A DNA stretch of 41,111 nucleotides from Candidatus Fibrimonas termitidis. GTDB lineage: Bacteria > Fibrobacterota > Fibrobacteria > Fibrobacterales > Fibrobacteraceae. The stretch spans positions 1-41,111 of the forward strand of contig LIUG01000107.1 of NCBI GenBank assembly GCA_001462245.1, read 5' to 3'. The notes beneath the pieces were generated by a model. That model made no database searches, was not told the origin of the DNA, and saw only the letters and a list, made by a program, of their open reading frames with translations. This document shows, in pieces, positions 1 to 3,432 of the stretch; the first letter of the stretch is position 1, and each line of letters begins with the position of its first letter. Made by a program: the position numbers and the translations under genes.

Positions 1-312
1 AAAAATCTATCTGGCCTCAAAACAGAAGGTTTGATAGAACGCATTGGACCAGATAAAGGCGGATACTGGAAGATTGAGGCCCCCTATAATTTTTCTGAAA
101 GTTCGGAGAAGAGTTCGGAGAAGAGTTCGGAGAAAAGTTCGGAGAAAATAGTAAATATTATAAGAAATAATCCTTTCGTTACAATAGAAGAGCTATCCGT
201 TTTGTTGAATAAAACAACAAGAGCTATAGAAAAAAATCTATCTGGCCTCAAAACAAAAGGTTTGATAGAACGTATTGGACCAGATAAAGGTGGATATTGG
301 AAGATTGTTTAG
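1..312 (+). CDS. C-terminal part of a winged-helix (HTH) DNA-binding protein, 5' truncated by window edge; resembles C-termini of AlbA_2/Schlafen-type ATP-binding regulators
   Basis: Frame open from base 1 to TAG at 312; VTIEELSVLLNKTTRAIEKNLSGLKTKGLIERIGPDKGGYWKI is a typical winged-helix segment and is present twice. Confidence 0.6.
   Translation, partial: KNLSGLKTEGLIERIGPDKGGYWKIEAPYNFSESSEKSSEKSSEKSSEKIVNIIRNNPFVTIEELSVLLNKTTRAIEKNLSGLKTKGLIERIGPDKGGYWKIV
100..147 (+). repeat. 12-bp tandem repeat (AGTTCGGAGAAG x4) encoding (SSEK)4
   Basis: Directly visible in sequence; linker between two winged-helix copies. Confidence 0.9.
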
Positions 313-1946
313 TAACCCTCACACCCCAACTTCTTCTCCAACTCCAAAGTCCAGGCATCGCTAAAATGGGCTATGGGAAACCTCGCCGCCTCACACGCCC
401 TTTCCAAATCCCCCATCTCGAAATAAATCTCCGCACGCCCTTGGCTAACAGGCCATGAATAACCGGCAATCTCCTCTATCGCATCCATAGCTTTCAAGGC
501 GTCTTCATAGTTTTTTTGCCGCAAATGCAATTGAGCGAGATACCAAAGCACAGCCGAATTTTTTGGATATATTTCAAAGGCTCTGTTGATGGGTTCTAGA
601 TTTAAGAACAATTCTTCACGGTCGGAAAAATGCCCGTATTCCAGACGGGTAAGGTGCATTGAATACAACTGCTTGCCTCTGTCCCAAAGCAAAAAAGAGA
701 GCAGGGGAATTAAGATTATGAAAAACAGATTGCGTGCCAAGCCTTTGATAGCAAAACTGCGTTCGGTTTGCAACGGCAGAAGGGCTTTCACGCAGTAAAG
801 CAAAAATATCCAATGGATTATTTGTATGAAAGCGAACATGGATATTGCCTCGGCTACTTCCATAACGGAAAGCATGGAGGCGAGCATTCCCGCTATGAAT
901 AGAAAATGAGGCTTGCCGGTTTTGAGATAGCGGAAAATGGATACGAACCAAGGTATTGCGAATAAGGCACAGTAGTAGAAAAATCCGGGCCAGCCTATTT
1001 CCGTCAGAATTTGGAGGTATTGGTTGTGTGTGCTGGTGTAAACCGTTGCTCCGTGTTTCAGATAGGCTTCTTCTATGGTCGGCCAGTGCTGCATGGAGTT
1101 TGCGCCGTATGCGCCGAAGCCAACGCCGAGAGGCTTTTCCTTGATCAGGTTCCAAGCGGCTTTCCAGTTGTCCAGCCTGCTTGTCGCTTCCGGCGGGGAG
1201 TCTGAGTTGAAAAAATTGGAGTTGACGGCGATTATGGAGGAGAACATCAGTGCTAAGAATATCAGGGCGGCGAGGGATATTCCGAGGTTTTTGGGTAGGT
1301 TGAATTTTTTCCAGAGGAATAGAGCGGTGGTGAATATAATTCCGCATCCAAGTCCGAGCCATATTCCAAGGGCGTCTTCACTACTGATTTTGAGTATTTT
1401 TGTGTAGATGTCATCTCCTACCACAAGGGAGATAGAAGCTAAGGCTCCGATTGCTACGGCATATATTCTCCAAAAAATATTATTGTCTTTGCGGTAGATG
1501 ATAATTGAGCAAAACATTAGGAGCATGTAGAAGAACATTATTTCGTTTGCTAAGGGGAAAATGCTTCTTATTGCTACTGTTTCGTTGTTTATGATTGTTC
1601 CGAAAATCTGCATAATCAAGTGCATATTTCCGCAGACAATCACGCTTCTGAAAATCCATTTGCTGTAGATTTCTTTTTGGGAGAATACGAGCAGTGTTGC
1701 TGCGAACATTGAGAAGCATAGTATCATGTCGTCTGAGGCGAATTCAAGTTTTTCGTTTATGCTTGCGAAGAGGATTATGGGCATTGCGAGGTATGGGAGT
1801 GTTTCTATGGGGATTTTCAGTTGGTTTTTGAAGGCTGTTGTGATGAGGGTTATGAGCAGTATGATTGCTATCACGGAGCTTTGGGGCGCAAGGGGCTGTC
1901 TAAGAGAATAGACGATTACAAAAGAGACGAAAGGGATCAGGAACAT
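309..1946 (-). CDS. O-antigen ligase/polymerase-like (Wzy_C family) membrane protein with C-terminal TPR-like region
   Basis: Multiple TM segments; GVGFGAYGANSMQHW...STHNQYLQILTEIGWPG motif typical of the O-antigen ligase family. Confidence 0.8.
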   Translation of the reverse strand: MFLIPFVSFVIVYSLRQPLAPQSSVIAIILLITLITTAFKNQLKIPIETLPYLAMPIILFASINEKLEFASDDMILCFSMFAATLLVFSQKEIYSKWIFRSVIVCGNMHLIMQIFGTIINNETVAIRSIFPLANEIMFFYMLLMFCSIIIYRKDNNIFWRIYAVAIGALASISLVVGDDIYTKILKISSEDALGIWLGLGCGIIFTTALFLWKKFNLPKNLGISLAALIFLALMFSSIIAVNSNFFNSDSPPEATSRLDNWKAAWNLIKEKPLGVGFGAYGANSMQHWPTIEEAYLKHGATVYTSTHNQYLQILTEIGWPGFFYYCALFAIPWFVSIFRYLKTGKPHFLFIAGMLASMLSVMEVAEAISMFAFIQIIHWIFLLYCVKALLPLQTERSFAIKGLARNLFFIILIPLLSFLLWDRGKQLYSMHLTRLEYGHFSDREELFLNLEPINRAFEIYPKNSAVLWYLAQLHLRQKNYEDALKAMDAIEEIAGYSWPVSQGRAEIYFEMGDLERACEAARFPIAHFSDAWTLELEKKLGCEGY

Positions 1947-2146: not shown

Positions 2147-2608
2147 TCAATTTCCTATCTTTCCGAAACTTGGAGTTAAAGTAAAACATCCATTTGTCGG
2201 TGTTCCGAATGCGCCTGAGCTGGCAGTTATACTCCACCTTCCTCCGGAGGCACTCCCGCAATTGATGCTAGCAGCTTTAAACCAATCCCCAGCCGATGCC
2301 TCCCAACTAGGCTTGCTCCCCTCAGTGTATGTGAAATTACTGGTTTTACTTCCACTTTTACCATTATCGCCAGGAGCGGTATATCCAATATCGTCCCATC
2401 CTCCTCCACTGGATATATCAGGAGCTTCCATAGTCCAAGCTGTATACAGCTTTGTCCAAGTTCCGGCTGCTGGGCCAACCTCGCTTGCTTTTGCCTTTGC
2501 GCTCATGCCAAACAGTTTTGGGATGGCGATGGCTGCTAAAATACCGATGATCACTATAACAACCATCAGCTCGATAAGGGTAAAACCCCGCTTTTTCTGA
2601 GTAGACAT
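2147..2608 (-). CDS. Type IV pilin / pseudopilin (prepilin N-terminal methylation motif)
   Basis: MSTQKKRGFTLIELMVVIVIIGILAAIAIPKLFGMSAKAK: class III signal peptide, G|FTLIE cleavage site; AGGAGG RBS on minus strand. Confidence 0.92.
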   Translation of the reverse strand: MSTQKKRGFTLIELMVVIVIIGILAAIAIPKLFGMSAKAKASEVGPAAGTWTKLYTAWTMEAPDISSGGGWDDIGYTAPGDNGKSGSKTSNFTYTEGSKPSWEASAGDWFKAASINCGSASGGRWSITASSGAFGTPTNGCFTLTPSFGKIGN

Positions 2609-2663
2609 AATTTCCTCCTGTCTCTAAACAAGCCTACTCTTTTCAACGATTTTCAGCTTCCTC

Positions 2664-2697
2664 GTGTCCACTTTAAACCATGGTTTAAAGTGGACAC
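2664..2697. repeat. 34-bp perfect palindrome GTGTCCACTTTAAACCATGGTTTAAAGTGGACAC (site A)
   Basis: Both 17-nt halves are exact reverse complements; near-identical second copy at 2788-2821. Confidence 0.95.
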
Positions 2698-2777
2698 TTT
2701 TTTCCAAAAAAATGACTGGGAAATGATAAAAAATTGACAGAAAAATAAAAAAAACACCGCTTTTTCAAAAAATTATG

Positions 2778-2783
2778 TATATT
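2778..2783 (+). promoter_or_regulatory. Putative extended -10 (TG)TATATT of the recombinase promoter, lying between the two palindromes
   Basis: TATGTATATTTATAG; same -10 hexamer precedes several other genes in the window. Confidence 0.45.
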
Positions 2784-2787
2784 TATA

Positions 2788-2821
2788 GTGTACACTTTAA
2801 ACCATCGTTTAAAGTGGACAC
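2788..2821. repeat. 34-bp near-palindrome GTGTACACTTTAAACCATCGTTTAAAGTGGACAC (site B), 2 differences from site A
   Basis: Direct comparison with 2664-2697. Confidence 0.95.
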
Positions 2822-2844
2822 CCCTTTTTTCTAAAATAAAGCTT

Positions 2845-3432
2845 ATGATATATGGTTATGTAAGGGTTTCAACAACCCATCAAAATGTTGAAAATGGAAC
2901 TTTCGAAATAGCGAAATTCGCTCAAAAAAGCGGTTTTTCTGTTGACAAATGGGTGGTTGAACAAATTTCTTCCTTAGAAGGGCTGTCCAGGCGCAAGCTT
3001 GGGGCATTGATAAGAAAACTCAAAAAAGGCGATATTTTAATCGCCACGGAAATTTCCCGGCTGGGCCGGAATTTGCTCGAAGTAATGGATATCCTGCATC
3101 TCTGCCTCAAAAAAAACTGCCAAGTTTGGACAATCAAAGAAAACTATCGCCTCGGCAGAGACATTCAAAGCAAAGTAATGGCCTTCACATTTGGAATTTC
3201 CGCAGAAATAGAACGAAGTCTCATCTCCGCACGAACCCGTGAAGCCCTGCAAAGGGTCAAAGCAAATGGCAAAAAACTGGGAAGGCCCACCGGATTTAAA
3301 AAAGATGTCCTAAAACTCGATCCAAGAAGATTGGAAATAAAAGGTTTACTAAGAAAAGGCTTCAAAAAGCGAGAAATAGCAAAACAAATTGGAGTAAGCC
3401 ACACCACGCTGTATAGGCATTTGAAGAAATAA
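2845..3432 (+). CDS. Serine recombinase, resolvase/invertase family, similar to Bacteroides Mpi master DNA invertase
   Basis: MIYGYVRVSTTHQNVENGTFEIAKFA (catalytic Ser), ISRLGRNLLEVMDIL, KVMAFTFGISAEIERSLISARTREAL, GKKLGRPTG, C-terminal HTH; ATG at 2845 fits better than the ORF-track GTG at 2788. Confidence 0.9.
   Translation: MIYGYVRVSTTHQNVENGTFEIAKFAQKSGFSVDKWVVEQISSLEGLSRRKLGALIRKLKKGDILIATEISRLGRNLLEVMDILHLCLKKNCQVWTIKENYRLGRDIQSKVMAFTFGISAEIERSLISARTREALQRVKANGKKLGRPTGFKKDVLKLDPRRLEIKGLLRKGFKKREIAKQIGVSHTTLYRHLKK

Follow-up and report, generated by a model that had tools for sequence, protein, structure and literature searches.

Promoter inversion is known from several bacterial systems that resemble the one considered here to different degrees. 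The Escherichia coli fimS element offers a functional analogy, as it is a short invertible promoter beside recombinase genes that turns a pilus on or off; the type 1 fimbriae concerned are chaperone-usher pili controlled at this single locus by the tyrosine recombinases FimB and FimE, acting on short repeats. Hin and Gin are closer in enzyme type, each being a small serine recombinase with a catalytic N-terminal domain, a C-terminal helix-turn-helix (HTH) and a 2-bp central crossover, but unlike the system described below they act on one or a few loci, and hin lies within its own invertible segment. The nearest counterpart is Mpi (FinA) of Bacteroides fragilis, where 13 invertible regions are under the control of one serine recombinase, and the genes for this enzyme and for a tyrosine recombinase stand head-to-head (PMC4747536). 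Bacteroides intestinalis, which has Mpi homologues and GTTCGTTTAA repeats, likewise carries shared-repeat invertible promoters at several surface loci, and in the accessible portion of the report on that species these are capsule loci with segments of 183-186 bp whose recombinase is not reported to be under such control (PMC8375218). Here we describe a comparable candidate in a 41,111-nucleotide stretch of Candidatus Fibrimonas termitidis, an uncultured gut member of the Fibrobacter group (contig LIUG01000107.1, hereafter the window), in which a putatively invertible promoter between two palindromic sites separates a type IV pilin gene from the gene for an Mpi-like serine recombinase, P0001.

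Like its B. fragilis counterpart, this system combines an Mpi-type recombinase with probable action in trans on many surface promoters. It differs in its host phylum (Fibrobacterota), in its targets (a type IV pilin and FISUMP, GLUG and outer-membrane proteins rather than capsules), in its sites (34-bp near-perfect palindromes with an AT rather than a TT centre) and in the placement of the recombinase behind one of its own invertons (promoters bounded by inverted repeats). A search of the open-access literature returned no account of invertible-promoter phase variation in Fibrobacterota, and the system is apparently undescribed in this phylum; the host phylum, the target classes and the recombinase behind its own inverton are what is new. 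The Mpi repeat consensus ARACGTTCGT, as quoted in PMC8375218, matches the window-type core AAACCATCGT at 8 of 10 positions and the core of another genome (G007), AAACCTTCGT, at 9 of 10, and the G007-type site TTTAAACCTTCGTTTAAA is identical to the B. intestinalis repeat at 9/10 positions.

Sites, segment and recombinase in the window

The original prediction read this locus as an invertible promoter of about 90 AT-rich base pairs with a -10 element, lying between two 34-bp palindromes with AT centres, one perfect and one with two differences, that are 124 bp apart and flanked by a minus-strand pilin and a plus-strand recombinase. Re-measurement bore out every one of these particulars, with the following features.

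2664-2697, no strand: recombination site A, 34 bp, perfect palindrome GTGTCCACTTTAAACCATGGTTTAAAGTGGACAC, centre AT
2698-2787, no strand: putative invertible promoter segment, 90 bp, AT-rich; assembled direction towards the recombinase, by homology to fixed pilin promoters
2788-2821, no strand: recombination site B, 34 bp, differing from site A at 2 positions, centre AT
2762-2789, plus strand: promoter-like pair TTTTCA-16-TATAGT (sigma-70-like), overlapping the first bases of site B
2808-2837, plus strand: candidate orientation-independent basal recombinase promoter TTTAAA-18-TAAAAT, a consensus match only
2845-3432, plus strand: Mpi-like serine recombinase P0001, 195 aa, with matches to PF00239 and the NCBIfam Mpi model; ATG at 2845
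2147-2608, minus strand: type IV pilin (PF07963), presumed phase-variable target, OFF as assembled

The 124 bp are measured from start to start, and the promoter at 2664-2821 is bounded by inverted repeats as is characteristic of an inverton. One end of the 2698-2787 segment reads TATATTTATAG, and TGTATATT is located at 2776-2783 with a conserved TATATT block at 2778-2783. The palindromes are not a product of chance, because the half site has four matches in the window versus 0.02 expected, with none outside sites A and B, and because the best 34-mer palindrome scores 17/17 in the real window versus 13/17 in five simulated windows.

We believe, with a probability of roughly 0.8, that the segment is an inverton in a self-switching, multi-locus phase-variation system of the Mpi type, a reading drawn from comparative sequence data. 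Most likely, P0001 would bind both palindromes, exchange strands at their shared central AT and thereby invert the segment. In the present orientation the promoter would drive the recombinase and leave the pilin off, whereas after inversion the pilin would be transcribed from it, by way of a leader containing the DUF805b RNA and perhaps together with a downstream Wzy_C ligase gene, and recombinase expression would fall to a basal level. P0001 probably also acts in trans on copies of these sites that precede about ten further genes, most of which encode surface lipoproteins.

P0001 has the hallmarks of a small serine recombinase, namely a Resolvase domain (PF00239, 4.6e-31), a C-terminal HTH_7 and, in an alignment with Tn3 resolvase, all four catalytic residues R7, S9, R72 and R75. 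Its assignment as Mpi-type held in that the NCBIfam Mpi model (NF009949) matches it at full length (1-194), but not in the score, which at 264.8 bits is below the curated cut-off of 272. By this measure P0001 is a borderline Mpi-like protein and not a strict member of the family; its orthologue in another genome of the genus (G001, 85% identity) scores 275.7 and other genus members score 308-329, all above the cut-off. The nearest solved structures include those of Gin and Tn3/gamma-delta resolvase, identity to phage Pin-type invertases is about 30% or less, and phage relatives reach about 58% identity at most; a search of a viral-contig database returned no relative. A single-sequence AlphaFold2 model had a pLDDT of 44 and was not used.

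As a separate observation, an A7/A8 tract that lies between the catalytic domain and the HTH is longer by one A in five related recombinase genes (L058:2294-, L059:876-, L061:3165-, L062:3004- and L064:3075-). The HTH of these genes is conserved and lies in the +1 frame (pN/pS 0.27-0.79); in the window and G001 the tract is A6 and the recombinase gene is in frame. Possible explanations are transcriptional slippage and a contingency tract.

Crossover signature and promoter direction across the genus

We compared the two members of 18 site pairs, drawn from nine genomes within the genus, with the second site read as its reverse complement. The central two bases match in 18/18 pairs; mismatches occur in 3-6 pairs at the next bases outward and in as many as 14 at the outermost ones. 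The centres seen are AT, TT/AA, AC or TA, and every pair with an asymmetric centre is in inverted register (8/8, with several of these pairs related and not independent), the direct register being absent. Because inversion by a serine recombinase requires precisely this register, inversion rather than deletion is predicted, and the earlier caveat that deletion is as possible as inversion is largely answered at the level of the family. Measured from centre to centre, the spacings (82.5, 93, 104, 124, 155 and 168) lie close to a single helical phase, with p 0.003 for a period of 10.5 bp and 0.013 once the scan over periods is allowed for. Enzyme clade and site type co-vary.

The direction of the promoter can be judged by homology. 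The window segment is homologous to the promoters of site-free, fixed pilin paralogues (G000:C76, G001:C41, G006:C279 and G010:C154, where G000 is the genome of the window), and because of this homology we conclude that its promoter faces the recombinase and points away from the pilin, so that the assembled state would be recombinase ON and pilin OFF. The proposal that the recombinase promoter would face the pilin if flipped is therefore supported as to the present direction, while the flip itself we infer. Elsewhere in the genus, the segment of G005:C35, which lies beside a recombinase, matches G002:C133 and G004:C31 only when flipped, with scores of 58 and 52 that were reached by 0/1000 shuffles versus 19 and 26 unflipped. 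Both orientations are found between homologous loci and species. Among 19 loci, a tally that includes one weak call (G002:C97) and C178 with its gene side assumed, 7 promoters point toward the surface gene and 12 away from it, and the phase-variable pilins that were checked are OFF as assembled in 7/7 cases.

A catalytic-domain tree places the window enzyme in a seven-member group (support 94/87). In six members, from the window species and five others, the recombinase gene follows, at a distance of about 23 bp, a site pair that encloses a promoter. The site sequences differ between the species of these six, and the promoters, judged by eye, face the recombinase in five of the six. The seventh member, in G001, has been relocated; a truncated copy was left beside the orthologous pilin inverton, which has the same 124-bp spacing, and the relocated copy retains the TTTTCTAAAATAAAGC leader ahead of it. 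On its other side the inverton adjoins a pilin in G000 and G001, the gene upstream of a FISUMP lipoprotein in G002, and no divergent gene in G010.

Since five related species keep an inverton about 23 bp before the recombinase despite differing sites, self-inversion is suggested to be the selected feature. The conserved role of the inverton would thus appear to be the switching of the recombinase itself, with the pilin of the window species presumably coupled to its other state. The original prediction of a pilus switch run by the adjacent enzyme gains support from this comparison but missed the conserved part, which is the inverton before the recombinase. The weak promoter pair at 2808-2837, which is outside the segment, could give basal expression, so that self-silencing may be less than full. 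More tentatively, and at somewhat less than even odds, the arrangement might serve as a latch that shuffles and then freezes: with its own promoter inside one of the segments that it inverts, the recombinase in an ON cell would reshuffle about eleven promoters, most of them serving surface genes, until the master segment flips, which would switch the recombinase off, freeze the surface pattern and turn the pilin on.

Decayed or truncated Mpi copies are also found beside invertons or pilins at L102:4402-4590, L147:1633-1872, L120:3977-4081 and L103:2340-2618, as if local recombinases had been lost and their sites left to a distant copy.

Further loci in the genome and rival explanations

The draft genome of the window species (G000, about 93% complete) contains exactly one PF00239 protein, P0001, and the core TTTAAACSATSGTTTAAA recurs before other genes, nearly always paired, on contigs C111, C136, C11 and C91 and at the edge of C178. 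When the leader of one target gene served as the query, eight paralogous loci of the lipoprotein type were recovered (C11, C40, C51, C91, C111, C118, C141 and C147, with C40, C51, C118 and C141 assigned from leader and start only), and a site or the remains of one lies immediately upstream in 8/8. The targets on C111, C11 and C147 have a FISUMP domain and the C136 target has GLUG repeats, whereas the short C91 protein has no Pfam match; a second site lies at the extreme end of C136, ahead of another gene. Including the window there are eleven loci with the common site, and the ten others mostly involve FISUMP-type lipoproteins. The genome-wide search for further palindromes that had been proposed therefore succeeded, and the original scope, a single pilin and recombinase locus, was right as far as it went but was an underestimate. 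One recombinase and many loci with a common repeat is the arrangement expected of a master invertase, which would act in trans. Site-like matches at C133:7119, C106 and G010:C52 were judged to be chance or remnants.

Degenerate intergenic CTTTTAG...GTCGG repeat arrays (about 42 bp in L004) are found distal to several FISUMP invertons, at L004:4300-, L052:4265-, L053:75- and L129:1880-.

The assembly itself may carry a footprint of mixed orientations. Scaffold gaps start within or at sites in six loci (C11, C40, C51, C111, C136 and C141), and contigs C118, C136 and C178 terminate at or just past a site. By contrast, C91 (distal site lacking one central base) and C147 (distal site deleted) are contiguous, with the promoter toward the gene, so that 0/2 loci with damaged sites are broken versus 8/8 with intact sites, or 8/9 counting the window. 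Repeat copy number alone fails to explain the gaps, because C91 and C147 carry the same segment and yet both were assembled; this weakens a pure repeat-collapse cause, although the count is small. The gaps would fit mixed orientations in the sample, which is suggestive rather than conclusive given the small numbers and the assembly of the intact window locus. Locus C178 was rejected as proof of inversion by itself, since its flank, joined to the gene-proximal end of the segment, looks inverted but its gene side is off the contig.

Several observations weigh against the inverton interpretation. The window segment is seen in a single orientation, as it is in G001, and its locus, though intact, shows no assembly gap. 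Gaps can also arise from repeats that several loci have in common, the palindromic AT centre of the window's own sites is ambiguous and leaves deletion formally possible, and P0001 is 7 bits under the Mpi cut-off. Even so, the invertible-promoter reading is supported by the orientations among homologues, the matching centres, the single recombinase and the further sites; inversion in cells, the part of P0001 in it and its effects on transcription are inferred from these.

One rival, which is very unlikely, is that the sites are invertible by another enzyme, either a tyrosine recombinase or one absent from the draft, and that the Mpi-like gene is a passenger. Adjacency is evidently not required, given that the Mpi gene beside the G001 pilin inverton is only a truncated remnant and the intact 85% copy is elsewhere; moreover, the draft is incomplete and the survey covered PF00239 proteins. 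However, P0001 is the sole PF00239 protein found, enzyme clade and site type vary together, and the site arms abut a 2-bp centre, as in serine-type sites, whereas tyrosine recombinases need 6-8 bp between the arms.

It is likewise very unlikely that the palindromes are plain operators at which the resolvase-like protein, or another regulator, represses a divergent promoter without recombination. Such a role would suit sites that lie on either side of promoters and extend into the -10 region, one of them with a terminator-like T-run, but operators need neither matching centres nor inverted register nor flipped homologous segments, and P0001 has its catalytic residues.

A system acting mainly through deletion, or through exchange of promoter cassettes between loci, is very unlikely despite the AT centre in the window and most G000 loci, the near-identical segments with different flanks at C91, C147 and C178, and a cassette that starts at the site edge and is common to C7, C35 and C46 of G002, because G000 yielded no clean product of deletion down to a single site, the C147 site was lost by deletion between short repeats, asymmetric-centre pairs are all inverted, and the FISUMP loci share a leader, so that gene duplication explains part of the sharing.

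The G002 cassette, which comprises a site and a promoter and starts with CTGTAAC, precedes three unrelated outer-membrane genes (L109:3345-, L111:3200- and L112:3017-), and all three contigs end inside it. Movement of this cassette between loci is possible.

Possible significance, leader RNA and neighbouring genes

The proposed targets are proteins expected at the surface of cellulose degraders, namely a second type IV pilin and FISUMP proteins, the latter described as putative extracytoplasmic cellulose-binding proteins (PMC5541161). If the inverton interpretation is correct, one enzyme would randomise the encounters of gut Fibrobacterota with fibre, phage and host, and the FISUMP paralogues would be at least partly a phase-variable repertoire and not all co-expressed. 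Furthermore, a self-inverting recombinase promoter would offer a simple model, open to test, of how a master invertase is kept in check.

Two further features lie on the pilin side of the segment.

2631-2666, minus strand: DUF805b RNA (RF02914, 41.1 bits versus 35.6), part of the leader of the pilin and adjoining site A
309-1946, minus strand: Wzy_C O-antigen-ligase-like protein with tetratricopeptide repeats (TPRs), by domain match, downstream of the pilin

DUF805b occupies the same site-to-gene interval at six other phase-variable pilin loci and is also present, with lower scores, at several other invertons; its position between an inverton site and a surface gene was noted in the window and at L060, L066, L068, L102, L105 and L115. 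About 20 of the 29 readable DUF805b loci in the genus adjoin a site or a contig that ends within a site. We rejected the RNA as a strict marker of invertons, as about 9/29 of these loci have ordinary promoters. If our interpretation holds, this orphan RNA could be placed in a setting, that of a leader often found with phase-variable surface genes.

The order of pilin then ligase is retained in G007:C20 and G002:C45, and for this reason the two genes are possibly co-transcribed. A conserved non-coding repeat, ACCTCGCACCGTAAAGTGACGAGGTGATAAACGTTTGGG..., is located 3' of several pilin genes (window, about 1960-2130; L102:3500-3640; L120:2800-2980) and may represent a terminator or mobile element. 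Finally, positions 1-312 of the window (plus strand) hold a partial gene with a duplicated winged-helix-like stretch and SSEKSSEK repeats between the copies.
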